From Streptomyces roseirectus (lineage in GTDB: Bacteria; Actinomycetota; Actinomycetes; Streptomycetales; Streptomycetaceae): 64,000 nucleotides of DNA. Below, piece after piece: positions 22,151-62,283 of this stretch (the first letter of the stretch is position 1; every line of letters starts with the position of its first letter). The notes under the pieces are model-generated. The model worked only from the letters and a program-made list of their open reading frames with translations. It did no database searches and had not been told where the DNA came from. The translations under genes and the position numbers were made by a program. The DNA lies in NCBI RefSeq assembly GCF_014489635.1, contig NZ_CP060828.1:2356001-2420000 (forward strand), given 5' to 3'.

Positions 22151-22257
22151 CGTCAGTCGCTCCCGTGCCCTCGCCCGCCATGATCGGCTCACACGATAAT
22201 CGGCTCGGCGGTGGCCACGTATCTGTACCTCTGCCTGGGTGTTCTGAGTATCCGTAC

Positions 22258-23589: not shown

Positions 23590-23621
23590 GGACTTCGCTC
23601 TCCCTCATCCCGGACCACATG

Positions 23622-25193: not shown

Positions 25194-25336
25194 CAGACCG
25201 TCCCGCCCTCGACCAGCATCCCGCCCCTCCCGCACAGATCAGATCGTCAGACTCTAACCGCCCCTCCCGACAGCCGGCTTCCGGGGACGTCATCGTCCAT
25301 CCAACCCCCACAACCACCCCGCCCGCATGAGTACCC

Positions 25337-25585: not shown

Positions 25586-25762
25586 GCTACCGCTGGCGGG
25601 AGTCGGCGTACCGCGTGTTACGGCGATGCGCCATGGGTCCACGCCCGCCCCCCGATCGAGTCGATCCCGAGTCGATCGATAGGGCGTTGGCTCACCGTCG
25701 GGTGCGGATCGGAGCCTCGGGGGTGCCGGGGTCCTCGACGTGTGAAGGGGCTGACGGAATCC

Positions 25763-26947: not shown

Positions 26948-28776
26948 CGGGCTGGGTCGACTTCCGGCGTGACCTGAGCGGGGAGGGCGCCACGGTGCGG
27001 ACGATGGTCGCCACCCTCGCCAACCGGGGCCCGGACGCCGAGGGGGTGTGGACCGACCGGCAGGCCGCGCTCGGCCACCGCAGGCTCTCCGTCATCGACC
27101 TGGAGCACAGCACCCAGCCGATGACGGTCGAGGAGGACGGCCGCACGCTCGCGGTCGTCGTCCACAACGGCGAGATCTACAACTTCCGTGAGCTGCGCCG
27201 CACCCTGGAGGCCCGGGGCCACCGCTTCCGCACCTCGGGGGACACCGAGGTCGTGGTGCGCGCCTACCTGGAGTGGGGCGAGCGGTGCGTGGAGCACCTG
27301 GACGGCATGTTCGCGTTCGCCGTCTGGGACCCGGGCCGGGGCAGGCTCCTGCTGGCCCGCGACCGCCTCGGCATCAAGCCCTTGTTCTACGCCCGCACCG
27401 CGCAGGGCGTCCTGTTCGGCTCGGAGCCGAAGGCCCTGTTCGCGCACCCCGCGCTGGAGTGCGCGGTCGACGCCGAGGGCCTGGCCGAACTCCTCGCGTA
27501 CATCGCGACGCCGGGCCACGCGGTCTACCGGGGCGTGCGGGAGCTGCCGGCCGGGCACACGGCGGTGATCGCGCACGGCGGGGTCACCGAGTCCGCGTAC
27601 TGGAGCCTGCCGAACCGCCCGCACACGGACGACGCGGCGACGACCGTCGACACCGTGCGCGGGCTGCTCGCGGAGTCCGTCGAAGCGCACCTCGTCTCGG
27701 ACGTCCCGCTGTGCACGCTGCTGTCCGGCGGCGTCGACTCCAGCGCCATCGCCGCGCTCGCCGCCCGCGCCGGGGGCCGCCCCCGGACGTTCGCCGTCGA
27801 CTTCGAGGGCCACACCGAGCGCTTCCAGAAGGACTTCTGGCACGAGGACCCCGACGCCCCCTACGCCGCCGAGGTCGCCCGCCACGTGGGCGCCGACCAC
27901 GAGCCGGTGGTGCTGCGGACGGCCGACCTCGTCGACCCCGTCGTCGACGCGGCGGCGCTGCGCTCCCAGGACCTGCCGCGCCCGATCCCCGACATGGACC
28001 GCTCGCTGTACCTGCTGCTGCGCGCGGTGCGCCGGCGCTCGACGGTGGCCCTGATGGGCGAGGCGGCGGACGAACTCTTCGGCGGCTACCGGTCGTTCCA
28101 GGACCCGTCGCTGGTCGACACCGGCAACTTCCCGTGGGTGACGATGGGGTTGAAGGTCGCCCCGCACGGCATGAGCACCGGCCTCCTCGACCCGGGCCTG
28201 CTGAAGAAGATCGACGTCCCCGGCCACGCCGCCCAGCGGTACGCGGAGGCGATCGCCGAAGTGCCGCGCGTGGCGGGCGAGTCGGAGCTGGAGCACCGGA
28301 TGCGCCGGGTCAGCCACGTGCACCTGACGCGCTGGATGCCGCTGCTGCTGACCCGCGACGACCGGCTCAGCATGGCCGTCGGCCTGGAGCTGCGGGTGCC
28401 GTACTGCGAGCACCGGCTCGTCGAGTACGTCTACAACATCCCCTGGGAGATGAAGACCGCCGACGGCCGGGAGAAGAGCGTGCTGCGCTCCGCCGTGGCC
28501 GATCTGCTGCCCGCGTCGGTGACCGAGCGCCGCAAGAGCCCCTTCCCCATCACGCAGGACCCGGGCTACGGGCGGGTGTTGAAGGAGCGGTTCGACGCCG
28601 TCGTCCACGACCCCTCCGGTCCGGTCGCGCCGCTGCTCGACCGGGAGGCGTGCGCCCGGCTCGCCGCGCAGGACCGGCCCATCGAGGTCAGCGGGTGGGG
28701 GGAGCGGCGGGACGTGGAGATGGTGCTCCAGCTCGACACCTGGCTGCGGCAGCACCGGGTACGGCTGGACCTGTGA
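26935..28776 (+). CDS. Asparagine synthetase-like amidotransferase, intact
   Basis: 613 aa from a GTG. The second codon is TGC, so Cys2 becomes the N-terminal nucleophile of the glutaminase domain (VCGIAGW; ANRGPD at 29-34; VHNGEIYN). The synthetase domain has the PPi-loop SGGVDSS (264-270), GEAADELFGGY and EKSVLRSAVADLLP. It would convert a polyketide carboxylate to an amide with glutamine and ATP, as in xantholipin/lysolipin-type pathways (known roles; the substrate here is inferred). Coupled to the glycosyltransferase. The downstream TenA-like gene starts after a 530-bp low-complexity gap. Confidence 0.93.
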   Translation: MCGIAGWVDFRRDLSGEGATVRTMVATLANRGPDAEGVWTDRQAALGHRRLSVIDLEHSTQPMTVEEDGRTLAVVVHNGEIYNFRELRRTLEARGHRFRTSGDTEVVVRAYLEWGERCVEHLDGMFAFAVWDPGRGRLLLARDRLGIKPLFYARTAQGVLFGSEPKALFAHPALECAVDAEGLAELLAYIATPGHAVYRGVRELPAGHTAVIAHGGVTESAYWSLPNRPHTDDAATTVDTVRGLLAESVEAHLVSDVPLCTLLSGGVDSSAIAALAARAGGRPRTFAVDFEGHTERFQKDFWHEDPDAPYAAEVARHVGADHEPVVLRTADLVDPVVDAAALRSQDLPRPIPDMDRSLYLLLRAVRRRSTVALMGEAADELFGGYRSFQDPSLVDTGNFPWVTMGLKVAPHGMSTGLLDPGLLKKIDVPGHAAQRYAEAIAEVPRVAGESELEHRMRRVSHVHLTRWMPLLLTRDDRLSMAVGLELRVPYCEHRLVEYVYNIPWEMKTADGREKSVLRSAVADLLPASVTERRKSPFPITQDPGYGRVLKERFDAVVHDPSGPVAPLLDREACARLAAQDRPIEVSGWGERRDVEMVLQLDTWLRQHRVRLDL

Positions 28777-29305
28777 ACCCGGCGAGCGCCGCACCCCGGC
28801 TCCGGCAGCACCACCCCCCCCCCAACTCCGACCTCCGGCCCCACCCCTGGCCCCGGCTCCGACTCCGACTCCGGCCCGGCCCTGGCGCAGCCCGGCCCCT
28901 GGCACTGGCCCCGGCCTCCGGCCCCGGCGCTGGCCCTGGCCCTGGCCCCGACTCCGACCTCCGGCCCCGACTCCGGCCCGGCCCTGACCCCGGCTCCGGC
29001 CCGGCCCTGGCACAGCCCGGCCCCTGGCACTGGCCCCGGCCCCGGCCTCCGGCCCCGACACCGACTCCGACACCGACTCCGGCCTCCGGCCCCGGCCCTG
29101 GCCCCGACTCCGGCCTCCGGCCCTGGCACTGGCCCCGATCCCGACTCCGACCCCCGGCCCCGACTCCGGCCCGGCCCGGGTCCCGGCCCTGACCCCGACC
29201 CCGGTCTCCGGCCCTGGCCCCGACCCCGGCCTGGCCCTGGCCCCGACTCCGGTCCGGCACTGGCCCCGGCTACGAACTCTGGCTACGAAAAGAAGGAGGA
29301 TGCCC
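28777..29305. repeat. C-rich minisatellite inside a tailoring operon
   Basis: About 480 bp of degenerate CTCCGG/CCCTGGCC units on the plus strand, with strong C-over-G skew. A larger unit containing GGCCCTGGCGCAGCCCGGC and CCTGGCACTGGCCCCGG recurs about every 120 bp (near 28880 and 29000). It separates the amidotransferase gene from the TenA-like gene in the same direction. No gene is supported; open frames on both strands follow from composition. Confidence 0.7.
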
Positions 29306-29974
29306 GTGCTGAGCAAGGAACTCCAGGAACTGGCCGAGCCCGTGCTCGCCAAGGTCAAGGAGCATCCGTTCTGGGCGGGGCTGCGGGACGGCACGCTACC
29401 GCCCGAGTGCCTGGCCCACTTCGTCGAGCAGGACACGTCCCACCTGCTGCCGGCGTACGCGCGGGCGCTGGCCCGCACCGCCGCCGCGACCCGCTGGGAC
29501 GAGCACGCCTCGCTGCTCGCCCGCTCGGTCATGGGCTCGCTGGAGGCCCGCGACCGGCTGCGGACGGCGTACACCGAACTGGCCCCCGGTCTCGGGCTGC
29601 CGGCGCTCGCCGCCGCGCCCGAGGCGTCCGCCGCCACCCACGCCCACTGCTCCTTCCTGCACGCCGCGACCGCCTCGACGGTCGCCGCCGGGATGGGGGC
29701 GCTGCTGCCGATGGTCTGGTTCAACCACCGGATCTCCGACGACCTCCTGGAGCGGCACACGCCGGGCTCCCGGTACGCCGACTGGATCCAGGCGTACCAC
29801 CCGGGCGAGGGCTACCGGTTCGCCGTGCGGGCCTTCATGGCCGCGTACGACGAACTGGGCGAGCGGATGGCCGTGCCGGGCCGCGCCGAACTCCTCCAGT
29901 ACTTCACGACGAGCGTCCGCTACGAGTGGGCGTTCGCCGAGGGGGCCTGGTCCAGGTCGGGCTGGCCGCTGTGA
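29306..29974 (+). CDS. TenA-family protein lacking catalytic Cys
   Basis: 222 aa from a GTG chosen because GAAGGAGG lies six bases upstream (the ATG six bases earlier touches the Shine-Dalgarno). TenA/PqqC all-helical fold: HPFWAGLRDGTLP, FVEQDTSHLLPAYARALA (Asp43 retained), GALLPMVWFNHRI, Tyr-rich WIQAYHPGEGYRF, C-terminal FTTSVRYEWAFAEGAW. In thiaminases the ALLPC motif holds the catalytic Cys; here it is Met136. A thiamin-salvage role is therefore unlikely. It lies between the amidotransferase and a P450 in the tailoring operon. Function open; a specialised hydrolase or non-catalytic partner is possible. Confidence 0.88.
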   Translation: MLSKELQELAEPVLAKVKEHPFWAGLRDGTLPPECLAHFVEQDTSHLLPAYARALARTAAATRWDEHASLLARSVMGSLEARDRLRTAYTELAPGLGLPALAAAPEASAATHAHCSFLHAATASTVAAGMGALLPMVWFNHRISDDLLERHTPGSRYADWIQAYHPGEGYRFAVRAFMAAYDELGERMAVPGRAELLQYFTTSVRYEWAFAEGAWSRSGWPL

Positions 29975-30041: not shown

Positions 30042-31271
30042 GTGACCGCCGACGTGAGCCCCGAAGTGTGCCCGCACGCCGCCAACCCGCCCAGGTATCC
30101 GTTCGCCTGGAGCCCGCCCATGGAGATGCCGGAGGCCCTGCGCGACGTCCACGGCTCCTCGGCGATGGAGGTGACGCTGCCGAGCGGTGACACCGCGACG
30201 CTCGTCACCCGCTACCAGGACGTCCGTGCCCTGTTCGCCGACAAGCGGCTGTCGCGCAACATCGCGCGGCCCGACTGCGCGCGGATCTCCAAGGACAACG
30301 ACCTGTTCATGGACCCGCACATCGACCCCGACCCGCCGAAGCACACGCAGGTGCGGTCGCTGGTGACCAAGGCGTTCACCGCGCGGCGCATCGAGTCGCT
30401 GCGGCCGTACGTCCAGGAGGTCGCCGATCAGCTCCTCGACGAGATGGCCGCGGGGCCCCGTCCGGCCGAGCTGAACGAGGCGTTCGCGTTTCCGCTGCCC
30501 ATCAAGGTCATCTGCAAGCTGCTCGGCGTGCCCGCCGAGGACCGGGACCAGTTCCGGGGGTACGTCGACGGCTTCCTCGCCGTGACGAAGCTGCCGCCGG
30601 AGGAGATCGGCAAGGCCCGGCAGAACCTGTGGAAGTACCTGGGCGACCTCATCGAGGCCAAGCGCGCCAACCCCGCCGACGACCTCATCAGCGAGTTCAT
30701 CCGCGTCCGCGACGAGGACGACAACCGGATGAACGAGCACGAGCTGCACTTCTGGTGCCAGGGCCTGCTCATCGCCGGCTACGTCACCACGGCCAGCCAG
30801 ATCGGCACCGGCACGGCGGTGTTGCTGAACCGTCCCGACCTGGTCCGCGAGATCCAGGCGGACTGGTCCCTGGTCCCGTCGGCGGTCGAAGAACTCCTCC
30901 GCACGCAGATCATGGGCTCGTCGGTCGGCACGATGCGCTACGCGGTCGAGGACATCCCGTTGTCCGACGGCAGCGTCATCAAGAAGGGCACCAGCGTCCT
31001 CCTCTCCGAAGAGGGCGCCAACTGCGACCCCGCCGTCTTCGACAACCCCTTCGAGCTGGACATCCGCCGCGAAGAGAACCACCACATGACCTTCGGCGCC
31101 GGCATCCACTACTGCGTAGGCGCGGCCCTGGCCCGCATGGAACTCCAGATCGCCACGGAATCCCTCCTCCGCCGCTTCCCGTCGATCCGCCTGGCCAAGC
31201 CCGCCAACGAACTCCCACGCGCCCTCGGCGGCTTCATGGAGGGCTTCACCGAGATCCCCGTGGACTGGTGA
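30042..31271 (+). CDS. Cytochrome P450 with non-canonical I-helix
   Basis: 409 aa from a GTG with AAGGGA upstream. CYP fold: ExxR in VEELLRTQ, haem loop FGAGIHYCVGAALAR with the ligand Cys. The I-helix motif, usually AGHETT, reads AGYVTT (245-250): Tyr-Val replaces His-Glu, so the acidic residue of the acid-alcohol pair is missing. A ferredoxin gene follows 8 bp later and would supply electrons. In related polycyclic xanthone clusters P450s form methylenedioxy bridges or oxidise rings; that assignment is inference. Confidence 0.93.
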   Translation: MTADVSPEVCPHAANPPRYPFAWSPPMEMPEALRDVHGSSAMEVTLPSGDTATLVTRYQDVRALFADKRLSRNIARPDCARISKDNDLFMDPHIDPDPPKHTQVRSLVTKAFTARRIESLRPYVQEVADQLLDEMAAGPRPAELNEAFAFPLPIKVICKLLGVPAEDRDQFRGYVDGFLAVTKLPPEEIGKARQNLWKYLGDLIEAKRANPADDLISEFIRVRDEDDNRMNEHELHFWCQGLLIAGYVTTASQIGTGTAVLLNRPDLVREIQADWSLVPSAVEELLRTQIMGSSVGTMRYAVEDIPLSDGSVIKKGTSVLLSEEGANCDPAVFDNPFELDIRREENHHMTFGAGIHYCVGAALARMELQIATESLLRRFPSIRLAKPANELPRALGGFMEGFTEIPVDW

Positions 31272-36003: not shown

Positions 36004-37614
36004 ATGTACGACGTGAGGATCCCGGTGCTGATCGTCGGTGGAGGCCCAGTCGGCCTCTCCACCGCCCTGTTCAGCGGACGCCGCGGTGTACGCACGATGC
36101 TGCTGGAGAAGCGCGACACCACCTCCACCCTCCCCCGCGCCCCCGGCCTCCAGGCCCGCACGATGGAGCTGTTCCGCGCCGCCGGCCTGGGCAAGGAGAT
36201 CCGGGCCCTGGAGATGGGCGACTCGCACGCCTACTTCGAGGGCGGCATCATCAAGGTCCACACCTTCGCCGAGATAGACGAGGCGGTCCTGCTGGAGGCC
36301 CCCTCCCTGGACGGCCCCACGGTCAGCCCGGAGCGCGTGATGGGCTGCGGCCAGGACCGCTACGAGAAGGTCCTCGCGGACAAGGCCCGCGAGGCCGGCG
36401 CCGACGTCCGCTTCGGCACGAAACTCATCTCCTTCGAGCAGGACGCCGACGGCGTGACGGCGATCGCGGAGGAGACCGGCGGCAAGAGGTTCACGATCCG
36501 CGCCGACTACCTCGTGGGCGCGGACGGCGCGGGCAGCCGCACACGGGAGATGCTGGGCGTCAAGCGCACCGGCCGCGGCACCGTCTTCGACGCGCTGAGC
36601 ATCTACTTCCGCGCCCCCGAGCTGGAGGTCCTGCTGAAGGACGCGAAGTTCATCCTCTGCTACGCCAGCGCGGGCGGCACGCTGATGGGCCTGTCCCGGC
36701 TGCACGGCTGCGACCCGTGGCTCGCGACCCCCCTGTACTACCCGGAGAAGGGCGAGAAGCCGGAGGACTTCGACGACGCCCGCTGCGTCGACATCGTCCG
36801 CAGGGCGGCCGGCCACGACATCGACGTCGAGGTCGTCGCGAAGGTCCCGTGGCGCGGCGCGCAGCTCGTGTCGGAGACGTTCCGCGAGGGCCGGGTCTTC
36901 CTCGCGGGCGACGCCGCGCACGTGCACCCCCCGGCGGGCGGCTTCGGCGCGAACACCGGTATCCACGACGCCCACAACCTCGCCTGGAAGCTCGCCGCGG
37001 TCCTCCAGGGCTGGGGCACGGACGCCCTCCTCGACACGTACGACGCGGAGCGCCGCCCGCTGGGCACGGCGATGTCGGAGCAGGCCCTGGTCCGCAACCG
37101 CATCCGGCACGGCTACGCCACCGAGCAGGACCGCGCGGACTTCGTGGACGACGTGATCATCACGCTCGGCTACCGCTACCGCTCCTCCTCGGTGATCGCC
37201 CCGGCGGGCGCCAAGGTCCTCTCCCCGGACCTGGAGCTGACGGGCGAGCCGGGCACCCGGGCTCCGCACCTGTGGCTGCGCAAGGGCGGCGAGACGATCT
37301 CGACGATCGACCTGTTCTGGGACTCGTACGTCCTGCTCACCGGCCCCGACGGCGCGGCGTGGACGCAGGCGGCGGCGAAGGTCGCGGAGAAGCTGGGCGT
37401 CCCGCTGCGGGTGCACACGATCGGCGAGGCACAGGCGCTGAAGCCGGTGGACCGGGAGTGGACGGACGTCTACGGGGTGGGCCCGGCGGGCGCGGTCCTG
37501 GTGCGGCCGGACGCGTTCGTGTCGTGGCGTGCGGAGGGCCCCGCGGCCGATCCGCTGGCCGTGCTGTCCGATGTGATCGCCCGTGCGGCCGGCCATGTGC
37601 CGGCGTCGGTCTGA
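36004..37614 (+). CDS. Group A flavin monooxygenase 2
   Basis: 536 aa, ATG with GAGGGGA upstream. FAD motif VLIVGGGPVGLSTALFSGRRG, DG motif DYLVGADGAGSRTRE, second motif GRVFLAGDAAHVHPPAGGFGA, and a C-terminal thioredoxin-like domain. Same family as the 33.1-kb enzyme but divergently oriented from it. Hydroxylation, epoxidation or Baeyer-Villiger chemistry on the polycyclic core is possible; the position cannot be predicted. Followed 12 bp later by methyltransferase 2. Confidence 0.93.
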   Translation: MYDVRIPVLIVGGGPVGLSTALFSGRRGVRTMLLEKRDTTSTLPRAPGLQARTMELFRAAGLGKEIRALEMGDSHAYFEGGIIKVHTFAEIDEAVLLEAPSLDGPTVSPERVMGCGQDRYEKVLADKAREAGADVRFGTKLISFEQDADGVTAIAEETGGKRFTIRADYLVGADGAGSRTREMLGVKRTGRGTVFDALSIYFRAPELEVLLKDAKFILCYASAGGTLMGLSRLHGCDPWLATPLYYPEKGEKPEDFDDARCVDIVRRAAGHDIDVEVVAKVPWRGAQLVSETFREGRVFLAGDAAHVHPPAGGFGANTGIHDAHNLAWKLAAVLQGWGTDALLDTYDAERRPLGTAMSEQALVRNRIRHGYATEQDRADFVDDVIITLGYRYRSSSVIAPAGAKVLSPDLELTGEPGTRAPHLWLRKGGETISTIDLFWDSYVLLTGPDGAAWTQAAAKVAEKLGVPLRVHTIGEAQALKPVDREWTDVYGVGPAGAVLVRPDAFVSWRAEGPAADPLAVLSDVIARAAGHVPASV

Positions 37615-42517: not shown

Positions 42518-43516
42518 CTAGGCGGGTTTACGGGCGACGAGGAGCGTGTTGCCCAGCAGCAGCGGATGCCGGGTGACGTCGGTGAACCCGGCCACCCGCA
42601 TCCACTGCTCGCAGTCACCGGGGTGGTAGCCGGCGCCGGCCGGGGTCATCACCAGCATGTGCAGGCTGGACACCAGCGCGGGCAGGTGCGGTTCGTCGCC
42701 CGGCATCGGGTCGTACACCAGCAGCGCGCCGCCGGGCGCGACGGCCTCGTACGCCTTCCCCACCAGCGTCTTGCGCTCGTCGACGGAGAAGTCCGCGAGG
42801 ACGTGGCCGATGACGACGACGTCGGCGGGCGGCAGCGGGTCGGCGAAGAAGTCGCCGCCGGTGAACTCCAGGCGCCCCTCGACACCGAGCGCCTTGGCGT
42901 GCTCGGCGCACGGCTCGGCGTTCTGCGGACGGTCGAAGACGCGGGCGGTGAGGTGCGGCCGGGCCTGGAGGACGAGCCCGGCGAGGTTGCCGCGCGCGCC
43001 GCCGACGTCGGTGAGGGTGGCGTACCCGGTGAGGTCGAGGGCGTCGAGGAGCTGCGGGACGAGGGGTGCGCTGAGGGCGTCCTGCATCGCGAGGAACGTC
43101 TGGCGGGCGCGGGGGTCGTCGAGCATCGCCTCGAAGTCGCCCTCGGCCTGCGGTTTTCCGGTGCGCAGGGCCTCGGTGAGGCGGCCCCAGGCGGGGTAGA
43201 GGACGTAGTTCGCGCCGTCCAGGAAACCGCCCCGGAAGTTCTCGCCGCGCACCAAATAGCCTTGCGCGAGCGGGCTGTTGCGGTAGCGGCCCTCCGTCTT
43301 CTCCAGGAGGCCGAGGGCGACCAGGGCGTCGAAGAAGTCGGTGGCGGCGCGGGCGTGCAGGCCGGTCGCCGCGCGCAGCTCCTCCGTCTCGGCGCTGCCC
43401 TCGACGGTCTGCGCGAGGGCGGTGAAGACGCCGAGTTCCACGGCGCTCAGGAGGAGCTTGGAGACGGTGAAGCTGTGGGCGAGTCCGCTGATCTTGGTGA
43501 GGTCGTCGGGGGTCAT
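42518..43516 (-). CDS. SAM-dependent O-methyltransferase 3
   Basis: 332 aa; ATG overlaps the halogenase TGA (ATGA). Motif I LTDVGGARGNLAG, then ADVVVIGHVLADFS: the Trp after the His-x-x-Asp pattern is replaced, but His and Asp-like residues remain (HVLADF). Otherwise closely like methyltransferases 1 and 2, sharing the YPAWGRLTEALRTG segment. O-methylation of a phenol is expected, possibly directly after halogenation. Confidence 0.93.
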   Translation of the reverse strand: MTPDDLTKISGLAHSFTVSKLLLSAVELGVFTALAQTVEGSAETEELRAATGLHARAATDFFDALVALGLLEKTEGRYRNSPLAQGYLVRGENFRGGFLDGANYVLYPAWGRLTEALRTGKPQAEGDFEAMLDDPRARQTFLAMQDALSAPLVPQLLDALDLTGYATLTDVGGARGNLAGLVLQARPHLTARVFDRPQNAEPCAEHAKALGVEGRLEFTGGDFFADPLPPADVVVIGHVLADFSVDERKTLVGKAYEAVAPGGALLVYDPMPGDEPHLPALVSSLHMLVMTPAGAGYHPGDCEQWMRVAGFTDVTRHPLLLGNTLLVARKPA

Positions 43517-44916
43517 CGGCCCTGGGTCCCTTCGGCGCGGCGCAGGCCCAGTTTCGGGCCGAAGGTGAGGTAGAGGCCGCCGACCGCGTTGGCCGGATTC
43601 ATCGGGGCCTGCTTCTGCTCGTGCACCTTGTTGAGGTTGGCGAGCGGGTTGGGGTCGCCGCTCTCGGCGCCGTTGAGGTGGGCGTGGACGCTGGCGTAGA
43701 CGTCCTGCGCGTCGTCCATGTCGGCGATGCCGGTGACGATGCGGTTGAACGCCTCCTGGAGGTTCAGGCTGTCGCGCTGGCTCTGGGTGAGGCGCTGGGC
43801 GTTGTAGAAGTGGTGCTCCTTGCCCCGGTAGCTCTCGTAGAACACGGAGACGAGGACCAGGAGACGTTCGTAGGCGTGCCGGTAGACGGTCTGGTAGAAG
43901 TCCCACGCCTCGTCCTCCTCTACCTCGCCGCGTAGGACGCTGCCGAGGGCCGCGGCGCTCAACATGCCGCTGTAGGTGGCGAGGTGGACGCCGGTGGAGA
44001 GCAGGGGGTCCAGGAAGCAGGCGGCGTCGCCGCTGAGGAGGTAGCCGGGGCCGCAGAACGCGTCGGCGGTGTACGAGTAGTCCTGCTCGACCTTCATGCC
44101 GGCGACCTGTTCGGCGCCCTCCAGCATTCCGGCGACCTGCGGGCACTCGGTGATGACCTTGTCGTACACCTCCTGGATGCCGCCCTGGAGGCGCTTCTTC
44201 TCGTTGAAGATGTCCCGGCCGGTGACCAGGCCGACGCTCGTCGTCCCGTCGTGCAGCGGGATCACCCAGAACCAGCCGTCGGGCGCGGAGCACACGGCGA
44301 TCGCGCCGTCCGGGCCCCGGTCCAGGCGCTTGACGCCCTTCCAGTACGTCCACGCGGCGACGTTCTGGAACACCTCGTGGTACGTGCGGTTCTTCTGCTG
44401 CCGGGCGGCGATCAGGCCGGTGCGGCCGGAGGCGTCGATGACGTAGTCGAACGAGATCCGTCCGCTGCGCGAGGGGTCCTTGGTACCGGCCCAGCTCGCG
44501 GCGACGGGCCGCCCGTCCTCGAAGTGCACCTCCTTGACGGTGGTCTCCTCGACGACGGTCACGCCCAGCTCGGCCGCGTGGCGCAGCAGTATCTCGTCGA
44601 ACTCCGAGCGGACGACCTGCCAGGCGTTGGTGCCGTCGGCGCCGAGCCCGTTGAAGTTCACTTCCCACTCCTCGGGCCCCCAGAAGAAGTACGCGCCCCC
44701 CTTCGGCTGGAACCCGTGCCGGTTGACCTTGTCCCAGACCCCCAGGTGCTCCAGGATCGGCCGGCACGACGGCAGGATCGACTCCCCGATGTGATAGCGC
44801 GGGAACTTCTCCCGCTCCACCAACGTGACCTCGAACCCCTCCTTCGCCAACAGCCCAGCCGCCGTCGACCCGGCGGGCCCTCCCCCGATGACCAGGATCT
44901 GCGTGGACTCGCGCAT
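43513..44916 (-). CDS. FAD-dependent halogenase
   Basis: 467 aa; the second of two ATGs is chosen for spacing to GGGAGAA. FAD motif LVIGGGPAGSTAAGLLAKEG, the halogenase signature GWFWVIPL (WxWxIP), and the catalytic-Lys region GFQPKGGAYFFWGPEEW. Typical phenolic (variant B) halogenase length with a helical C-terminal extension. It would chlorinate an aromatic ring using FADH2, chloride and O2; a flavin reductase gene is not seen in the window. Heads the halogenase-methyltransferase-luciferase-like operon. Confidence 0.94.
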   Translation of the reverse strand: MRESTQILVIGGGPAGSTAAGLLAKEGFEVTLVEREKFPRYHIGESILPSCRPILEHLGVWDKVNRHGFQPKGGAYFFWGPEEWEVNFNGLGADGTNAWQVVRSEFDEILLRHAAELGVTVVEETTVKEVHFEDGRPVAASWAGTKDPSRSGRISFDYVIDASGRTGLIAARQQKNRTYHEVFQNVAAWTYWKGVKRLDRGPDGAIAVCSAPDGWFWVIPLHDGTTSVGLVTGRDIFNEKKRLQGGIQEVYDKVITECPQVAGMLEGAEQVAGMKVEQDYSYTADAFCGPGYLLSGDAACFLDPLLSTGVHLATYSGMLSAAALGSVLRGEVEEDEAWDFYQTVYRHAYERLLVLVSVFYESYRGKEHHFYNAQRLTQSQRDSLNLQEAFNRIVTGIADMDDAQDVYASVHAHLNGAESGDPNPLANLNKVHEQKQAPMNPANAVGGLYLTFGPKLGLRRAEGTQGR

Positions 44917-48041: not shown

Positions 48042-49625
48042 TCAGTGGTGCGACGCTTCGATGCTGCGCGGGGCACTGCCTTCCGTGCCCGGCTTCACGA
48101 CCGTGAACTGCCCCATCATCCCCACGTCCTCGTGGCGCAGGATGTGGCAGTGGAACATGTACGGCGTCTTCGGGTCGGTGTACGGCGGCAGCGTGACCGC
48201 GAGCCGCATGGTCCCGCCCGGCGGCACCCGCACCGTGTCCTTGGGCCCCCGCAGCCAGGCGTCCGGCTTCTTCCCGTCGTAGTCGATGACGTTGAACGTG
48301 AGCCCGTGGACGTGGAAGTTGTGGACGACCTCCGCGTCCCCGCTCACCTCCCAGATCTCGGTCTTCCCGGCCGGGCAGACCTCGTCGATCCGGCTCATGT
48401 CCATGCCCTTGCCGTTGATCACGGTGCTGTTGAAGTCGAACGTCCGCACCCGCGCGTCCGCCGGCACCGCGATGGCGGCCTGCGCCCCGCGCAGCCGTCC
48501 GGGCAGCGGCGCCGACGCGGCGAGCCGGCTCTTGGCCCGCACCTCGATCATGTCGAAGGTGTCCTCCCCGCCCCCGAACCGCTTCGTCGGGAACGACAGC
48601 CCGAGCTCCGGCGGATAGCTGCGCAGGACGACCTTCTCCCCGGGCTTGAACGCGACGACGATCTCGGCGCGTTCCCCCGGCGACAGCTGCAACCGGCGCA
48701 GCGGCAGCGGCTGTTCGAGCAGCCCGTTCTCCTGGGCGACGAGGTGGAACTCGCGGCTGTCGGTGAACGCCAGGTTGTAGGAGCGGGCGTTGGACCCGTT
48801 CAGCAGCCGGAACCGGACGAGCGAGGTGGACACCTCGACGTGGGGGTTGTAGGTGCCGTTGACGAGGATCTTGTCGCCGAGGACGCCGGGGCTGCCGACC
48901 CCGGCGAGGCTCTGGAGGAAGGACGCGCCGCGCAGGTCGATGGAGCCGTCGTCGTCGAAGGCGCGGTCCTGGAGGATCAGCGGGATGTCGTCCACGCCGT
49001 AGTCGCGCGGGAGTCCGGCCCGGTCCGCCTCGTCGTCCTCGACGATGAACAGGCCGGCCACGCCGCGTGAGACGTGGTCGGCGGTGTTCTGGTGGGGGTG
49101 GGGGTGGTACCAGAGGGTCGAGGCGGGCTGGGCGATCTCCCACTGGGGGTTCCAGGTCTCGCCGGGGCGGACCATCTGGTGCGGGCCGCCGTCCATCTCG
49201 GCGGGCAGGTGCATGCCGTGCCAGTGGAGGGTCGTCGACTCGGGGAGCTTGTTGGTGAGGGAGACGGAGATCTTCTGGCCCCGGCGCACCCGGAGCGTGG
49301 GGCCGAGGAAGGCGCCGTTGACGCCCCAGGTCGGGGTCTTCTTGCCGGGCAGCAGTTCGCTCTCGCCGGTCTGGGCGGTGAGTTCGAAGACCCGGCGTCC
49401 CGAGCCGTCGTCCTTGCCCTCCAGGAGCGGGGGGACGCGCACCTTGTTCTCGAAGGAGAGGTCGCCGACGTTGCTGAGCTTGCGGCCCCGGTAGGCGACG
49501 GCGAAGTTGGCGGCGTAGGCGCCCGCGCCGAGCACGCCGATGCCGAGCAGGCCCCCGGTGAACAGCAGGATCCTGCGGCGGATGGTCCTGGGCCGCTTCG
49601 CGGGCGCCCCACCGCCGGGCTCCAT
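48042..49625 (-). CDS. Membrane-anchored three-domain multicopper oxidase
   Basis: 527 aa from the ATG giving a sensible N-terminus; an ATG at 49688 adds 21 residues. N-terminal twin-Arg-like RRR and a hydrophobic segment (about 18-42: ILLFTGGLLGIGVLGAGAYAA) predict an exported, anchored protein. All four copper motifs are present: HWHGMH, WYHPHPH, HNFHVHGL and FHCHILRHEDVGMMG (type 1 Cys, axial Met). CotA/CueO-type laccase. It could oxidise the phenolic product outside the membrane, e.g. to a quinone or dimer, or serve copper homeostasis; its place in the cluster favours the former. Confidence 0.9.
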   Translation of the reverse strand: MEPGGGAPAKRPRTIRRRILLFTGGLLGIGVLGAGAYAANFAVAYRGRKLSNVGDLSFENKVRVPPLLEGKDDGSGRRVFELTAQTGESELLPGKKTPTWGVNGAFLGPTLRVRRGQKISVSLTNKLPESTTLHWHGMHLPAEMDGGPHQMVRPGETWNPQWEIAQPASTLWYHPHPHQNTADHVSRGVAGLFIVEDDEADRAGLPRDYGVDDIPLILQDRAFDDDGSIDLRGASFLQSLAGVGSPGVLGDKILVNGTYNPHVEVSTSLVRFRLLNGSNARSYNLAFTDSREFHLVAQENGLLEQPLPLRRLQLSPGERAEIVVAFKPGEKVVLRSYPPELGLSFPTKRFGGGEDTFDMIEVRAKSRLAASAPLPGRLRGAQAAIAVPADARVRTFDFNSTVINGKGMDMSRIDEVCPAGKTEIWEVSGDAEVVHNFHVHGLTFNVIDYDGKKPDAWLRGPKDTVRVPPGGTMRLAVTLPPYTDPKTPYMFHCHILRHEDVGMMGQFTVVKPGTEGSAPRSIEASHH

Positions 49626-52868: not shown

Positions 52869-54059
52869 TCACCACTCCACCGGCAGCGACAGCAGCCCCC
52901 GGGACACCGGATGGTCCTTCCAGCGGATGCGGTGTTCGGGGATCGCCAGGCGGAGGGTGGGGATCCTGCGCAGGAGGGTCGCGAGGGTGACCTGGAGTTC
53001 CATGCGGGCCATCTGGGCGCCGAGGCAGCGGTGGATGCCGTAGCCGAAGGCGAGGTGGGGGTTGGGGGTGCGGGAGATGTCGAGCTGGGCGGGGGTGGGG
53101 AAGACGGCGGGGTCGTGGTTGGCGGAGCCGATCGCGGGGACGACCGCTTCGCCCGCGTGGATGGTGACGCCGCCGAGGGTGACGTCCGAGAGCGCGACCC
53201 GGGGCAGCGCCCCGCTGATCGCGGAGGGGTTGTAGCGCAGCAGTTCCTCGACGGCGTCCGGGATCAACTCGGGCCGCTCCCGCAGGAGATCGAGTTGGCC
53301 GGGGTTGAGGAGCAGCGTGAGGACACCGCTGGAGATGGCGTTGACGGTGCTCAGATACCCGGCGGTGACCAGCAGGAACGCGAACCCGACGAGCTCTCTC
53401 TCGGTGAGTTTCCCGCCCTCCCGCTCGGCGACCAGCGCCCCCAGCAGATCGTCCGAGGGCCGGGCCCGGCGCAGCGCGATCATCCCGGAGACGTACTCCT
53501 CCAGAGACCCGCGCGCGGCCTTGATCTCGTCCTGCGAATGCCTCGTCATGCTGAACGCGGTGTCGGTCCAGGCGCACAGCTGCGGACTGTCCTGCGCGGG
53601 CACCCCCAGCAGCTCCAGCACCAGCATGAGCGGCACGGGCAAGGCGAGCCCCGGCACGAGGTCGCCCGGCGGCCCCGCCGCCACGAGCGTGTCGAGCAGC
53701 GAGTCCGCGAGCGCCTGCGTCCAGGGCCGCAGCCGTTCCACCCGCCGGTTCGTGAAGTGCTTCACCGCGAGTCTGCGCAGCCGCGCGTGATCGGGCCCGT
53801 CCATCCCGAGCAGCACATCGGGCCCGGGATTGGACGCGCCCATCCGCGGCGCACCCGGCGCCTCGGCGGCGGCGCGGCTGAACCGCTCGTCGTTCAGCAC
53901 GAGTTGGACATCGTCGTACCGCGTGACCAGCCACGCCTCGTCGCCGGTGGCCAGCACCACCCGCGCGACCGGCGCCTCCTTGCGCAGCAGCGCGAGTTCA
54001 CGGGGCTGGGCGATGCCCGAGGGGAAGGCGAAGGGGAAGTCCAGTGGTTGTCCAGGCAT
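52869..54059 (-). CDS. Cytochrome P450 2 with non-canonical I-helix
   Basis: 396 aa. ExxR in VEELLRYN, haem loop FGYGIHRCLGAQMAR. The I-helix reads TAGYLSTVN (232-240) where most bacterial P450s have AGHETT: Tyr-Leu-Ser for His-Glu-Thr, so the acid is lost, just as in the 30.0-kb P450. Otherwise CYP105/107-like. No dedicated ferredoxin adjacent; it may share the one at 31280. Stands alone on the minus strand, divergent from the SDR at 54193. Confidence 0.93.
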   Translation of the reverse strand: MPGQPLDFPFAFPSGIAQPRELALLRKEAPVARVVLATGDEAWLVTRYDDVQLVLNDERFSRAAAEAPGAPRMGASNPGPDVLLGMDGPDHARLRRLAVKHFTNRRVERLRPWTQALADSLLDTLVAAGPPGDLVPGLALPVPLMLVLELLGVPAQDSPQLCAWTDTAFSMTRHSQDEIKAARGSLEEYVSGMIALRRARPSDDLLGALVAEREGGKLTERELVGFAFLLVTAGYLSTVNAISSGVLTLLLNPGQLDLLRERPELIPDAVEELLRYNPSAISGALPRVALSDVTLGGVTIHAGEAVVPAIGSANHDPAVFPTPAQLDISRTPNPHLAFGYGIHRCLGAQMARMELQVTLATLLRRIPTLRLAIPEHRIRWKDHPVSRGLLSLPVEW

Positions 54060-54192
54060 CACGGCCTGTTCTCCTCCGTCGTGGGGGTTCCGGTCGAGCA
54101 GTGGACCACGCCCCGCTTCACATCGGCTCAAGAACCGTCGCGTTCGAGCAGCCCTCCACCACCCGTCGGGCGCTGTTGCCGACGATGCCCGT

Positions 54193-54972
54193 ATGACTGT
54201 CATCGTGATCACCGGCGGCAGCCGGGGCATCGGACTGGGCCTCGCGCACGCGTTCGCCTCCCGCGGCTGCCACGTCGTGATCTGCGGCCGCGACGAGACG
54301 TCCGTGACGGCCGCCGCCGAGCAGAGCGGCGCCCTCGGCGTCCCCGCCGACGTCACCTCCCGCGCCGACGTCCGCCGCCTGTGGGACACCGCCACCGAGC
54401 GCTTCGGCCGCGTCGACCACTGGATCAACAACGCCGGCATCGCACTGGCCCCGCGCCTCCTGCACGACATCCCGGAGGACGACGTCCGCCGCCTAGTCGA
54501 CGTCAACCTGGTCGGCGCGATCAACGGCTGCGCCGTCGCCGTCGAGCGGATGCTCGATCAGGGCGGCGGGTTCGTGTGGAACATGGTCGGCTTCGGCAGC
54601 AACGGCCGTGTCTCGCGCGGCATGGCGCCGTACGGGTCGACGAAGCGGGCCCTGGCGTACCTGCACGACACGCTGACCCTGGAGGCGAAGGGCACGCCGG
54701 TGCGGATCGGCCTGCTCTCCCCCGGCCTCGTCGTCACGGAACTCGTCGCCGGCAACGACCTCCGCTCCGACCTGCGGGGCCGCCGCCAGCAGGTGTACTA
54801 CGAGGTCCTGTCGGACCCGCTGGACGTCGTCGCCCCCTGGCTCGCCACCCGCGTCCTGTCGGCGACCAGGAACGGCACCCGCGCGGAACGCCTCACCGGC
54901 CCCAAGGCGTGCGGACGCCTGGCGACGGCACTGCTGCGGGGCCGACTGCATCCGGCGCTGCGGGCGACCTGA
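54193..54972 (+). CDS. SDR-family oxidoreductase
   Basis: 259 aa; ATG at MTVIVITGG with weak ribosome site. Cofactor motif TGGSRGIGLG (7-16), NNAG, YGSTK catalytic pair, and a longer C-terminal region (residues 190-259) than FabG-type SDRs, ending in basic residues. Subtype differs from the other three SDRs in the cluster. 24 bp before the second amidotransferase-like gene, so they probably form an operon. Substrate unknown. Confidence 0.88.
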   Translation: MTVIVITGGSRGIGLGLAHAFASRGCHVVICGRDETSVTAAAEQSGALGVPADVTSRADVRRLWDTATERFGRVDHWINNAGIALAPRLLHDIPEDDVRRLVDVNLVGAINGCAVAVERMLDQGGGFVWNMVGFGSNGRVSRGMAPYGSTKRALAYLHDTLTLEAKGTPVRIGLLSPGLVVTELVAGNDLRSDLRGRRQQVYYEVLSDPLDVVAPWLATRVLSATRNGTRAERLTGPKACGRLATALLRGRLHPALRAT

Positions 54973-54996: not shown

Positions 54997-56733
54997 GTGT
55001 CAGAACTCGCAGGCTGGGTCGATTTCGAGCGGACGCTCCCCGAGGGGCGGGAGGCCGTCGTCGCGATGACCCGCGCCCTGCGCGCCGGGGACGCGGGCGG
55101 CGGACGGCTGTGGGGAGGTCCGGGCGCCGTCCTCGGCGTGCGGTCCGGCGTCGATCCCGCCGTGGAGGGCGACAGCCTCGGCACCGTCGCCGCCGTCGCC
55201 TTCGCCGGCCAGTGCGACAACCGCGCCGAACTCCCCCGCGCCGGCACCGACGCGCAGGCGGTCCTGCTGTCGTGGCTCGCCACGGGCCCGGCCGGCGCCG
55301 ACCGCCCGCGCGGCTCGTACGCGTTCGCGGTGTGGGAGCCGCGCGCGGCCGAACTCACCCTGGTCCGCGACCGGTTGGGCACCCGCCCGCTGTACTGGGC
55401 GCGCACCCCGACCGGCGTGGTCTTCGCCTCCCGCCCCGACGCCCTCTTCGCCCACCCGGAGCTGCGCCCCCGCCTCGACGCGGACGCCCTGCGCACCGTC
55501 CTCGCCGGCATCAACGTCCCCGGCCGGACCGTGTTCGGGGACGTGTACGAGGTCCCGCCGGGCCACCTCGTCCGCTTCACCGCCGCCGGCCACACCGTCC
55601 ACCGCTACTGGCGCCCGGAGGCCGCCGAGCACTCCGACGACGTGGCCACCACCGCCGTCCGCGTCCGCGAACTGCTCGCCGGCGCCGTCGCGGAGCACAC
55701 CGGACGGGCGGGCACCCGGGTCGGCAGTCTCATGTCCGGGGGGCTGGACTCCAGCGCGCTGGCCGCGCTGCTCGCGGCGGGGGCGGAGGGGCCGGTGCCG
55801 ACGTTCGCCGTCGACTACCAGGGGTACGAGGAGAACTTCCGCCCGCACATCGTGCGCCCCCAGCCGGACAGCCCCTTCGTCCGCGACATGGCCGCGCACC
55901 TCGGCTCCGACCACACGGACGTCGTCCTCACCACCGGCGACCTCACCCGCCCCGAGCTGTGGACGCACCTGGTCACGGAACTGGACCAGCCGCGCCTGTT
56001 CGCGGACACCGAGCCGTCCATGGCGCGGCTGTACGCGGCGGTGGGCGGCCGGGTCGACACGCTGCTCAGCGGCGAGGGCGCGGACGAACTCTTCGGCGGC
56101 TTCCCCTGGTTCCACCATCCGCGCTGGGCGCAGGCGCCCGACTTCCCGTGGACGCCGACGACGGACGAACTGGTCGGCACCCTGTTCGCGCCGGCGATGA
56201 AGGAGCTGGAGGTGCGGACGTTCCGCGCCGACCACTACGCGACCGCGCTCGCGGAGATCCCCGGGCTGCCCGGCGAGGATCCGCTGGAGCGCCGGATGCG
56301 CGAGGTGGTCTACCTCTTCACGACCCGTTTCCTGCCCGAACAGCTCGACCGCGCGCACCGCTTCGGCGCCGCCGCCGGCCTCGACGTCCGCCTCCCCTTC
56401 TGCGACCACCGCCTCGTCCAGTACGCCCTGAACATCCCCTGGTCGACGAAGACGTCGGACGGCTGGGAGAAGAGCACCCTGCGCGCGGCGGTCGCCGACC
56501 TCCTGCCGGCGTCGGTCCTCCAGCGCCGCAAGTCCGGCTACCCGATGACCCACGACGACGGCTACGACGCCACGCTCCGCACGCGCCTGGCCGCGCTGCC
56601 GGCGGACGCGCCGGTCCGTCCGCTGCTGGATCCGGCGGCGCTGCACGCGCCTCGGTTGAGCCGGACGGAGCTGGAGCTGGCGTTGAAGGTGAACGGGTGG
56701 TTGGAGAGGTACGGGTTGACGCTGCCGGGGTGA
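54997..56733 (+). CDS. Asparagine synthetase-like enzyme with lost glutaminase nucleophile
   Basis: 578 aa from a GTG with AGGGAG five bases upstream. Paralog of 26935-28776. The N-terminus reads VSELAGWVDF where the paralog has VCGIAGWVDF: Cys2 is Ser (codon TCA), the RGPD loop and the NGEIYN motif are gone (AGQCDN instead). The synthetase half is complete: SGGLDSS (247-253), GEGADELFGGF, EKSTLRAAVADLLP, RRKSGYPMTHDDGY. So ATP-dependent carboxylate activation should work, but not glutamine hydrolysis. Like beta-lactam synthetase, it may use a different amine (intramolecular lactam closure or an external N-nucleophile) or free ammonia. Confidence 0.93.
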   Translation: MSELAGWVDFERTLPEGREAVVAMTRALRAGDAGGGRLWGGPGAVLGVRSGVDPAVEGDSLGTVAAVAFAGQCDNRAELPRAGTDAQAVLLSWLATGPAGADRPRGSYAFAVWEPRAAELTLVRDRLGTRPLYWARTPTGVVFASRPDALFAHPELRPRLDADALRTVLAGINVPGRTVFGDVYEVPPGHLVRFTAAGHTVHRYWRPEAAEHSDDVATTAVRVRELLAGAVAEHTGRAGTRVGSLMSGGLDSSALAALLAAGAEGPVPTFAVDYQGYEENFRPHIVRPQPDSPFVRDMAAHLGSDHTDVVLTTGDLTRPELWTHLVTELDQPRLFADTEPSMARLYAAVGGRVDTLLSGEGADELFGGFPWFHHPRWAQAPDFPWTPTTDELVGTLFAPAMKELEVRTFRADHYATALAEIPGLPGEDPLERRMREVVYLFTTRFLPEQLDRAHRFGAAAGLDVRLPFCDHRLVQYALNIPWSTKTSDGWEKSTLRAAVADLLPASVLQRRKSGYPMTHDDGYDATLRTRLAALPADAPVRPLLDPAALHAPRLSRTELELALKVNGWLERYGLTLPG

Positions 56734-58905: not shown

Positions 58906-61900
58906 ATGGCAAGAGGGGACGCCTGGGCGGCAAAGGGCACGACCGGATCAGTCGCGGATCTCGTCGCCCGGTTCGGCGAGGAGGTCAGGGCCAAGCTTCA
59001 AGGTCCCGCAGGGGCGGTCAGCAGCAAGGAGGACAGCCTGACCGCGCCGGTGGAGCAATTACTGCGCGGCATGGCCTCGCGGCAACGTCTCAAGCTCATC
59101 GCCCACGGCCAGAGTCGCGTCAAGGAACTCAAGATCCGGCCCGACTTCGCCATCTCCTGCGGCGGCAGGACCATCGGGCACGTCGAACTGAAGCCACCAG
59201 GAGCGGGTGCCGATCCGGAGCAGTGGTCGGTGAGAAGCCACAACCGGAGGCAATGGGAGAAGATCAAGGCCCTGCACAACGTGCTCTACACCGACGGGTA
59301 CCAGTGGGCTGTCTACCGTTTCGGCGTACAGGTCGGCCCGACTGGAGTCCTGGTCGGGGACCTTGAATCCGGCAGCCGGCGACTCGCCGTCGCGGACACC
59401 GGTTTCGAGCGTGCCCTTACGCACTTTTTCCTGCCCGCCCCCATCGTCCACGGCAGCATCGCCGAACTGGTCAAGCGCATCGCGAAAATCTGCGCTCTGC
59501 TGCGCGATGAGGTCACCGAACGTCTCACCCGCGAAGAGCACGGGGAAGCCGACGCCGCGTTCGCGATCCTGGCCGACAACTGGAAGGACCTGCTCTTTCC
59601 TGATGCCCGCCCGGAGGAATTCGCGGACCAATACAGCCAGACATTGACCTTTGCCACGCTGCTGGCTCGCCTTGAGCACATTGACCTGAGCAGGCTCACG
59701 CTCCCCGAGGTCGCGATCCGGCTGGGCAAACGACATTCGTTGATGGGCAAGGCGCTGGCCGTGCTGACGGATGACGCCCTCGACGACCTGCGGGGCGTCA
59801 TCGACCCGTTGATCGACGTCATATCGGCCGTCGACCCCGAGATGTTCAAGGACGAGACCGGAGACGCCTACCTTCACTTGTACGAGGGGTTTCTGACCGC
59901 CTACGACCCGGAACTGCGACGCCGGACGGGTACGTACTACACGGCCGGCGAAGTCGTCCGCTTCATGGTCCGCTTCACCGACGAGGTGCTGCGTGACCGA
60001 CTCGGTCAGGAGGACGGATACGGAAGCGAGGACGTCACCGTCGTCGATCCGGCCATGGGCACCGGGACCTTCCTCATCAACATCATCGACCACGTCGCCA
60101 AGTCCCTGTCGCTGAAGTACGGCGGGACGCTCAAGTCCGGGCTGCTCCAGGAGCTCGCGGGCCGGCTGGTCGGGCTGGAGAAACAGACCGGGCCGTACGC
60201 GGTCGCGGAACTCCGGGTGCACCACGCCTTCCGGTCCCACGACGCCGACGTCACGCGCCGCCCGCCGAGGCTTCTGGTGGCCGACACGCTCGACGATCCC
60301 GCCGTCGAGCATCACCTGGGCTTCATGTACGAGGCGATCGCTCGCCACCGCCGCATGGCGAACAAGATCAAGGCGGACGAAAAGGTCATGGTGGTCATCG
60401 GCAATCCGCCCTACCTGCGGGGCGCACGGCAGTCAGGGGTCGGACGCTGGGTCACCGAGGGCAACCCGAACGACAAGGGCGCGATCCTCGCCCGCTTCCA
60501 CCCGGAGGACAACGGACGCGTCGGTTACGCCCTCGACAACCTCTACGTCTACTTCTGGGCGTGGTCCACCTGGAAGGTCTTCGACCAGTTGACCGTCTCG
60601 GGAGCGCCGAAGGCCCCCAGCGGGATCGTCGCCCTCATCACCAACTCCGGATACCTGGACAGCGACGGCGCGGCCGGCATGCGCCACTACCTGCGCGAGG
60701 CCGCCGACGAGGGCTGGGTCATCGGCCTCTCCCCCGAAGGCGCCTACTCCGACCCGCGTACTCGTGTCTTCCAGGACGTCAAGCGGGAGATCTGCATCGC
60801 CGTCTTCGTCCGCCACGGCGCCCCGAACGCGGGTACACCGGCGCGGGTCTGGCGCCTCGATGTCCCCGCGGGCACGCGCGAGGAGAAGTTCGACTGGCTG
60901 GAAGGGCTTGGCCTCGACGGCCATCGCGGAGGGACCTCCTGGCAGCTCTGCCCCACACAGTGGACCGCGCCCTTTCACATCACGTCCGACTCCGAGTGGT
61001 CGGCCATGCCACCGGTGGACGCCCTGCTGCCCTGGACCAGCTCCGGCAACAAGAACAACCGCAGCTGGCCCGTCTCACCCAGCCGGGACGTTCTGAAGGC
61101 CCGGTGGCGCAGGCTCGTCCAAGCCCCGGCGGAGGACAAGGCCGCACTGCTGAAATCCACCCGGGACCGCCGTCCCGACAAACCAGAACCACCACTGCCC
61201 GGCCAGCGGGAAAGAAGCACCCTCGCTGCGGAGCAGGAGACGGTACCGGTCATCGTTCCCTACGGCCGGATGACGTTCGACAGGCAGTACATCATCGCGG
61301 ACCGGCGAGTGATCGACTTTCCACGACCGGCCTTGTGGTTCGCCCACAACGACCGACGCCAGATCTACCTCTCCGAGCTGCATACGGAGTCGGGACGCAT
61401 CGGCCCGGCCGTCGGGTTCACCGCTCTCCTTCCCGACATGCACCACTTCAAAGGCACCGAAGGTGGACGCGTCGCCCCTCTCTACCGCCACCCCCACCTG
61501 GCAGAACCGAACGTGACCCCTGGCCTGCTGCGGCTGCTCACCGAGACGCACGGCGTGACAGTCACCGCCGAGGACCTCTTCGCGTACATCGCGGGAACAG
61601 CCGGCCACAGCGGGTACACCCGCCGCTTCGCCGCGAACCTCGCCGAGCGGGGTGCCCGGATCCCTATGACGCGCGACCCGGCTCTTTGGGCGGAGGTCGT
61701 GGAAGTGGGCAGGCGCACGGTGTGGATCCACACGTACGGCCGGCGCTTCGCCTCCCACCACGGCAGTTCGCCCGGCACGCCCCCCAGGCTTCCCCCGGAG
61801 GAACGACCGGAATGCGTCGTCGCGATCGGAGAGGACGACGGGTTACCCGAGGCCATCTCCTACGACACGTCCACGCGGACCCTCACCGTGGGCACGGGCC

Positions 61901-62283
61901 GCATACGTCCGGTGGCGCCGGAGGTCTGGGACTACCGGATCGGCGGAGTGCAGGTGATCCGCAAGTGGTTCGGCTTCCGCAAGCGCAGGCCGGACGTGGA
62001 ACGGCAGACCCCGTTGAACGAGATCCTGCCCCCGGCCTGGCCCGCCCGGTGGACCGTCGACCTGCTCGACCTCATCAACGCACTCGGGCTCCTCGTGGCC
62101 CTCGAACCCCGACAGGCCCGGCTGCTGGATGCCGTGAGCAGCGGCCCGCTCATCACCGTCGACGACTTACGGGGCGAGGGCATCCTGCCCGTGCCTGCCT
62201 ACGCGATCAGGGAACCGAAACCGCCACGGAAGTCTCGACGCACCCCTGGTCCGGGTCAGGAGAGTTTCGACTTTCCTGACTGA
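58906..62283 (+). CDS. Type ISP single-chain restriction-modification enzyme
   Basis: 1125 aa from ATG (an in-frame upstream ATG at 58852 is AT-rich and less likely). N-terminal nuclease-like domain with a PD-(D/E)xK pattern: Asp80 (RPDFAIS) and Glu94-Leu-Lys96 (HVELKPP). A helical linker is followed by the N6-adenine methyltransferase with DPAMGTGTF (Asp381) and NPPY (Asn500), then a C-terminal target-recognition region (about 650-1100). Architecture fits type ISP/IIG enzymes that cut and methylate in one chain. A translocase motor is not evident by eye. No separate methylase or specificity gene flanks it. Codon use slightly less GC-biased: probable defence cargo beside the cluster. Confidence 0.9.

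Follow-up and report, generated by a model that had tools for sequence, protein, structure and literature searches.

An asparagine-synthetase-like (AS-like) protein encoded in a polyketide cluster of Streptomyces roseirectus, here called B, has lost the nucleophile and both motifs of the glutamine site, and the loss is shared by two orthologs. We see an even chance that B is an ATP-dependent synthetase that joins a carboxylate to a directly bound, non-glutamine nucleophile and works together with a cytochrome P450 (P450b) and a short-chain dehydrogenase (SDR_b) as an optional polyketide tailoring module. The DNA analysed (the window, 64,000 nucleotides) is part of a 9.95-Mb single-contig genome and encodes two AS-like proteins of interest here:

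54997 to 56733, + strand: B, AS-like protein without the glutaminase nucleophile (alignment and profile scans)
26935 to 28776, + strand: A, the Cys-bearing AS-like amide synthetase of the cluster

Loss of the Glutaminase Site in B

The open frame of B starts with a GTG at position 54997, ends at 56733 and encodes 578 amino acids. Its residues 1 to 10 (xSELAGWVDF) align with those of A (xCGIAGWVDF), with Ser2 (55000-55002) replacing Cys2. Three codons upstream of the GTG lies an in-frame TAG, with a GGGAG stretch in between; therefore, no earlier start could give B a Cys. In the alignment the RGPD region reads RAGDAGGG in B versus ANRGPDAE in A, so that Gly31 and Gly34 occupy the positions of Arg and Asp, and the NGE loop reads AFAGQCDN versus VHNGEIYN. 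The glutaminase domain is also shortened, with residues missing after the NGE-loop position. In profile scans B scored 262.4 bits with TIGR01536 (AsnB, NCBIfam), just under the cut-off of 267.1 (A: 495.8), and 246 bits with PF00733 (Asn_synthase), for which the cut-off is 21.

Cys2 is present in 72 of the 76 distinct AS-like proteins from the fetched loci that were aligned with A and B, where start codons were chosen with a preference for one with a Cys within 12 residues, which could favour Cys. The GIxG context flanking Cys2 in the relatives agrees with the chosen starts. The four rows that lack it are B's own copy, two orthologs of B and one distant Caulobacteraceae protein. The orthologs, both 65% identical to B, are encoded in Streptosporangium canum (L009) and Streptosporangium minutum (L010) and show the same Ser2 and the same motif losses; the three B proteins thus span two families. 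A sequence-only reading of this DNA had reported that A keeps Cys2, RGPD and NGEIYN and that B has Ser2 and has lost both glutamine-site motifs. The alignment bears out the first statement, and alignment and orthologs together confirm the second. The same reading had raised a sequencing error as a possible explanation; this, and a wrong start, are ruled out by the identical state of both orthologs and the stop just upstream.

Searches with B of 394 genomes from the window's family, 396 from its phylum, 341 from the S. canum family and a fourth set of 392 genomes of the genus revealed no further ortholog. The sets overlap. Per genome, the three or four best first-look candidates were scored and matches under an E-value limit were taken, so that misses are possible; another search relied on exact peptide words, by which orthologs can also be missed.

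Divergence of the Two Halves

The two halves of B have not diverged evenly. Compared with the S. canum ortholog, 112 of 195 N-domain positions and 275 of 372 C-domain positions are identical (difference -0.165, Fisher 9.2e-5); compared with the S. minutum ortholog, the counts are 114/195 and 273/372 (difference -0.149, Fisher 4.2e-4). Between the two Streptosporangium proteins the difference is -0.036 and not significant (p 0.09), which counts against our proposal for the function of B. Among Cys-bearing proteins (2540 pairs from 72 rows), the mean N/C difference is positive in every band covered. The lowest value among these pairs is -0.136; seven pairs lie at -0.10 or below, none of them as low as B versus either ortholog. 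The glutaminase half of B has therefore diverged more than the synthetase half, the opposite of the Cys-bearing average. This should be the picture expected if the glutaminase was lost while selection on the synthetase was retained. Of the residues in columns that are at least 95% conserved in 65 Cys-bearing rows of the clade, B keeps 44/84 in the N-domain and 99/135 in the C-domain.

B shares 39% identity with A and 38-45% with the 64 other Cys-bearing rows of the clade. In a phylogenetic tree B and its two orthologs are placed apart from A; the tree contains long branches, and the branching around A and B is open. It omitted L002 and L005 (copies of A and B) as well as L011; L007 and L008 had no matching frame, and TsnB9, the closest solved relative (see below), was absent. 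The possibility that B is a recent duplicate of A was rejected on the basis of the 39% identity and of the tree, which separates the B group from A. To judge from these comparisons, the Cys-bearing and Cys-less copies are distinct lineages.

The Synthetase Half and the Glu-Tyr Dyad

B retains SGGLDSS, SGEGADELFGG and the RRKS lysine, and the PP-loop, the SGE motif, the dyad Glu and the Lys are present in all three B proteins.

55735 to 55755, + strand: ATP-pyrophosphatase loop (SGGLDSS) of B, which both orthologs conserve
56068 to 56103, + strand: SGEGADELFGGF of B, with Glu364 kept (56086-56088) and Phe369 in place of the dyad Tyr (56101-56103)

The dyad is taken from PesC: the accessible text of a recent preprint describes Glu363-Tyr368 as common to PesC, E. 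coli AS, AsnO, TsrC and ScdTA and reports that the exchange Y368F abolishes PesC activity, and it terms the mechanism of PesC's family not well understood (PMC13060819). We placed the dyad on the E and Y of ADE-x-x-G-G-Y by spacing, which is our own mapping. In the clade, 65 of 65 Cys-bearing relatives, among them A, have the Tyr after FGG, as do 7 of 7 paralogs at greater distance; 3 of 3 B proteins have Phe instead and retain the Glu. B thus lacks the pair of Glu and Tyr five residues apart after SGE by which AS-like amidating enzymes were recognised here. About twenty other C-domain residues conserved in the clade are lost in B as well. The view that the synthetase half is intact, held in the sequence-only reading, is correct for SGGLDSS and GEGADELFGG but does not extend to the dyad Tyr.

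Because the dyad Tyr is Phe in all three B proteins, B is not simply an AsnB deprived of its glutamine supply; its catalytic pocket is changed as well. The changed pocket speaks for another nucleophile, other chemistry or an inactive protein. Phe369 counts against the proposal that B is a coupling enzyme, since the same exchange inactivates PesC according to the part of the preprint that is accessible (PMC13060819), so that B might be inactive. With both the glutaminase nucleophile and the dyad Tyr lost, B could be a pseudoenzyme that serves as a structural or regulatory partner of the P450 and the SDR or of A. We regard this as improbable, although the Phe makes it a serious rival: 3/3 proteins retain the PP-loop, SGE, the dyad Glu and the Lys, the C-domain is 73-74% conserved, and TsnB9, which has a His at the site of Phe369, is described as active.

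Another alternative is that B uses free ammonium instead of glutamine and forms a primary amide. PesC and canonical asparagine synthetases take ammonia in place of glutamine (PMC13060819, accessible text), and the synthetase motifs of B are retained. However, A with its intact glutaminase site is already present in the cluster, and the loss of the dyad Tyr and of about twenty conserved C-domain residues means that more than the nitrogen source has changed; such an ammonia-dependent B therefore seems to us to have little probability.

Comparison With Known AS-Like Enzymes

The closest solved relative of B is TsnB9 (PDB 7ylz), the hydroxyamidotransferase of trichostatin biosynthesis, which matches residues 4-549 with an E-value of 9.2e-102. 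Full-length similarity and an insertion preceding SGE place B in the TsnB9 (XanA-type) clade of natural-product AS-like enzymes. Like B, TsnB9 has this central insertion and lacks Tyr at the dyad site. Unlike B, it has intact Cys2, RGPD and SGE motifs and takes its nitrogen from glutamyl hydroxamate: for TsnB9 and SaHAT, relatives from this clade, transfer of the hydroxamate nitrogen from this donor is described in the accessible part of PMC13418202. TsnB9 with its intact Cys site is therefore no direct precedent for the use of a free nucleophile, which counts against our proposal. An AlphaFold2 model of B, calculated from five alignment rows, reached a mean pLDDT of 45.8 and is not usable, a further point against our proposal; a Foldseek search with this model ranked TsnB9 first, but at TM-scores near 0.25, from which we draw no conclusion.

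XanA, LlpA, Abf2 and LtmO from polycyclic xanthone pathways, which we know from papers, are of the same enzyme type as B and come from the same kind of PKS cluster. A is likely the counterpart of these amide synthetases. In the accessible literature one such gene is named per XanA-type cluster, whereas B is an extra, glutaminase-dead copy; LtmO is said there to have conserved catalytic sites. For the AS-like Arx5 of arixanthomycin, addition of serine rather than ammonia to the terminal carboxyl before oxazolidine formation has been proposed (PMC9327801, accessible text). That text names no other enzyme of this type for the arixanthomycin cluster, whereas B is a second copy. In the open-access literature, which leaves most subscription papers outside, we found no report of such a glutaminase-dead extra copy and nothing usable on PdmN, on pradimicin together with an asparagine synthetase or on AS-like amide ligases that lack the Cys. 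In Streptomyces sp. 2323.1 a lysolipin-like cluster contains an extra asparagine synthase with a transglutaminase beside it (PMC13200232, accessible text). We rejected it as a precedent for B; the adjacent transglutaminase suggests that it belongs to a lasso-peptide cluster and is no homolog of B.

Two AS relatives, beta-lactam synthetase and carbapenam synthetase (CarA), work without glutaminase activity and need no ammonia from glutamine to form a C-N bond. B could likewise close a lactam within one molecule, as the sequence-only reading had suggested by analogy; weak matches to these synthetases are found among the relatives of A and B. But B is far nearer to TsnB9 (E-value above) than to CarA (1.4e-4), and beta-lactam synthetase (1jgt) does not reach 0.001 with B. 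These synthetases differ from B in their weak sequence relation and in their intramolecular chemistry. Moreover, B has Glu360 in SGE at the position where beta-lactam synthetase carries a Tyr (Tyr348), and B thus shows neither the close relation nor the Tyr that would mark a beta-lactam synthetase. A beta-lactam-synthetase-like closure by B accordingly finds no specific support and is in our opinion very improbable. Lasso-peptide cyclases are AS-like as well and catalyse ATP-dependent macrolactam formation, but with NF033535 (lasso-peptide cyclase) B scores 122.9 bits, below the cut-off of 525. Neither this score nor the structure matches gave a reason to regard B as a lasso cyclase or a beta-lactam synthetase.

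The Polyketide Cluster and Copy A

Pfam scans covered 48 of the called ORFs of the window and revealed a type II PKS cluster. Its main landmarks are:

9033 to 14780, - strand: type II PKS core with KS-beta (9033-10238), KS-alpha (10250-11539), cupin, cyclase, anthrone-oxygenase-like protein, SchA/CurD, KR and ACP (14511-14780; KS and ACP positions from Pfam)
36097 to 37614, + strand: FAD monooxygenase of the aromatic-ring type; among solved structures it is nearest to the rubromycin/griseorhodin enzymes RubL and GrhO5
43513 to 44916, - strand: flavin-dependent halogenase, 70-72% identical to proteins in nine genomes of the S. canum family

According to Pfam the cluster also encodes cyclases, two ketoreductases, ABM and anthrone-oxygenase-like proteins, three FAD monooxygenases, three O-methyltransferases, two P450s, a glycosyltransferase, a TenA-like protein and transporters. 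A make-up with a halogenase and an AS-like gene is described for xantholipin/lysolipin-like pentangular polyketides in the accessible text of PMC9327801 and PMC13200232. On gene composition we assign the cluster to this pentangular, xantholipin-like class. Among the Pfam hits of the 48 ORFs there is no PLP enzyme or other plain amine-making family, which counts against our proposal for B. The window gave no hits with Rfam at the gathering threshold and none in a tRNA scan.

Copy A shows a peculiarity in its SGE motif, which has Met for Ser (MGEAADELFGG); its counterparts in seven other clusters and in S. minutum have Ala at this Ser and RGVD or RGVT for RGPD. Next to A a TenA-like protein is encoded (29300-29974), which has 56-58% matches in seven related stretches and matches PDB 9wdg, named TenA-family regulator LysR2, with 2.9e-74. 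Between the PKS core and the tailoring genes lies a block (15700-25700) that is almost unmatched in related stretches and contains genes for a thioesterase, HATPase, DUF5753, an alpha/beta hydrolase, a subtilase and unknown proteins. A multicopper oxidase gene of the cluster (48042-49625) is matched at 49% in G805 and at 33-35% in two further related stretches. Just outside the cluster, at 59050-62283, a type ISP restriction-modification protein is encoded.

The P450b, SDR_b and B Trio

B is preceded by the two genes that complete the trio:

52869 to 54062, - strand: P450b, cytochrome P450 with the heme motif FGYGIHRCLG (read by eye)
54193 to 54972, + strand: SDR_b, short-chain dehydrogenase with GGSRGIG, NNAG and YGSTK motifs

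The stop of SDR_b lies 24 bases ahead of B, and P450b is transcribed divergently from SDR_b. In both P450s of the window (52869-54062 and 30042-31271) the acid-Thr pair of the I-helix is absent and AGYLS and AGYVT are found instead; P450s without this usual pair may carry out unusual oxygen chemistry.

The window's trio is bracketed by SDR_a (49929) and POT (57257). Homologs of SDR_a (54-58%) occur in five related stretches and those of POT (41-44%) in four. ABM3, located beside B, was not taken as a bracket; its matches in related clusters are mostly the counterpart of ABM2. The trio is also found together in S. canum (P450 69%, SDR 73%, B 65%). There it is located at 321-325 kb, and the matching PKS cluster (KS-alpha 74%, halogenase 72%, P450a 72%, FAD oxygenase 69%) lies at about 65-109 kb on the same contig, approximately 212 kb apart. 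The S. canum trio adjoins a gene for a large SARP-type regulator (L056:3967-5943). Ten of its neighbours were scanned, and no PKS or NRPS families were detected among them.

The halogenase was used as marker to survey 341 genomes of the S. canum family. A match at 1e-120 was found in 21 genomes, nine of which showed 70-72% identity, namely those of S. canum and S. minutum and seven others. We compared the stretches around the halogenases of these seven and of two weaker matches (59% and 55%). Six of the seven stretches contain an A-type gene (all except G1070), and neither of the weaker-match stretches does. KS-alpha matches of 73-76% are present in four of the seven. Three of the seven are incomplete views, some of them truncated where the contig ends: G928 and G1043 are on contigs of 21.7 and 36.5 kb, with no KS in the stretch, and in that of G1070 both KS and A are missing. 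Cys2 is kept in all six A-type genes and in those of S. canum and S. minutum. The trio is found in none of the seven 70-72% stretches and in neither of the two weaker ones. Within the family, B is present in 2 of the 9 genomes with a 70-72% halogenase versus 0 of 332 others (Fisher 6.2e-4, a value that counts two close Streptosporangium species as independent and depends on a 70% cut set after the list had been seen). All three genomes with B, including the window's genome, which is outside the family set, also carry the halogenase and an A-type gene.

Because A is found in most marker stretches and B in only 2/9 genomes, far off from the cluster in S. canum, A looks like a core gene and B like an optional tailoring gene not bound to the cluster location. 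This weakens the idea of the sequence-only reading that a fixed order, first amide formation and then the step of B, applies: B was not found in seven of nine marker genomes, and the distance of about 212 kb in S. canum further weakens a fixed division of labour.

The remote location in S. canum counts against our proposal in a second respect, since the substrate may then not be a polyketide. The trio might make or modify a small molecule unrelated to the polyketide and lie beside the window's PKS cluster by chance; its distance in S. canum, its own SARP-type regulator and the ten neighbours free of PKS and NRPS families are in line with this. On the other hand, the cluster marker is present in 3/3 genomes with B, the distribution in the S. 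canum family is 2/9 versus 0/332 (with two Streptosporangium species so closely related that they may represent a single event), and the trio of the window is flanked by genes with homologs in related clusters. We therefore consider a product unrelated to the polyketide unlikely, if worth keeping in mind.

Proposed Function of B

With its glutaminase site gone and its synthetase half better conserved, B likely has a role other than glutamine-dependent amidation. In this respect the sequence-only reading holds: glutamine-dependent amidation is gone; its beta-lactam-synthetase chemistry was too specific and its two-step logic was not borne out. The P450b and SDR_b partners and the Tyr-to-Phe exchange are additions to that reading. 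For the coupling of a carboxylate to a non-glutamine nucleophile, we infer that B is catalytically active, which acid and which nucleophile it uses, and in what order P450, SDR and B act, as follows. Glutamine hydrolysis by B would be permanently lost. P450b and SDR_b would oxidise a position of the scaffold, for example an alkyl group or an alcohol, and thereby expose a carbonyl or carboxylate. B would adenylate the carboxylate and couple the activated acid to a nucleophile from the pool, such as serine or another amino acid or amine, instead of glutamine-derived ammonia. Arx5, as proposed, offers a precedent for serine coupling in this compound class, and TsnB9 and SaHAT offer one within the clade for a nucleophile other than ammonia. 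The substrate of the trio would be the pentangular, xantholipin-like polyketide of the surrounding cluster. A pool amine or amino acid would be the simplest donor, because no PLP or amine-making family was found in the 48 scanned ORFs.

A further-reaching reading, which we put forward as speculative and rather unlikely, is that B represents a new functional class of AS-like enzymes in which glutamine hydrolysis and the Glu-Tyr proton relay were dropped together. The acyl adenylate of the polyketide would be passed to a nucleophile that needs no general base, and the trio would be a portable carboxyl-rewriting module for aromatic polyketides. Candidate acceptors would be hydroxylamine or hydrazine (alpha-nucleophiles), a hydroxyl group (giving a lactone or ester in place of a lactam) or even hydride, with SDR_b reducing the acyl adenylate.

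If B is active, it would show how a family that delivers ammonia can come to couple other nucleophiles to aromatic polyketides, and the Tyr-to-Phe exchange that it naturally carries would make the role of the Glu-Tyr dyad directly testable. The presence of B also suggests that its host strains are likely to produce a modified congener of the polycyclic-xanthone-like kind.
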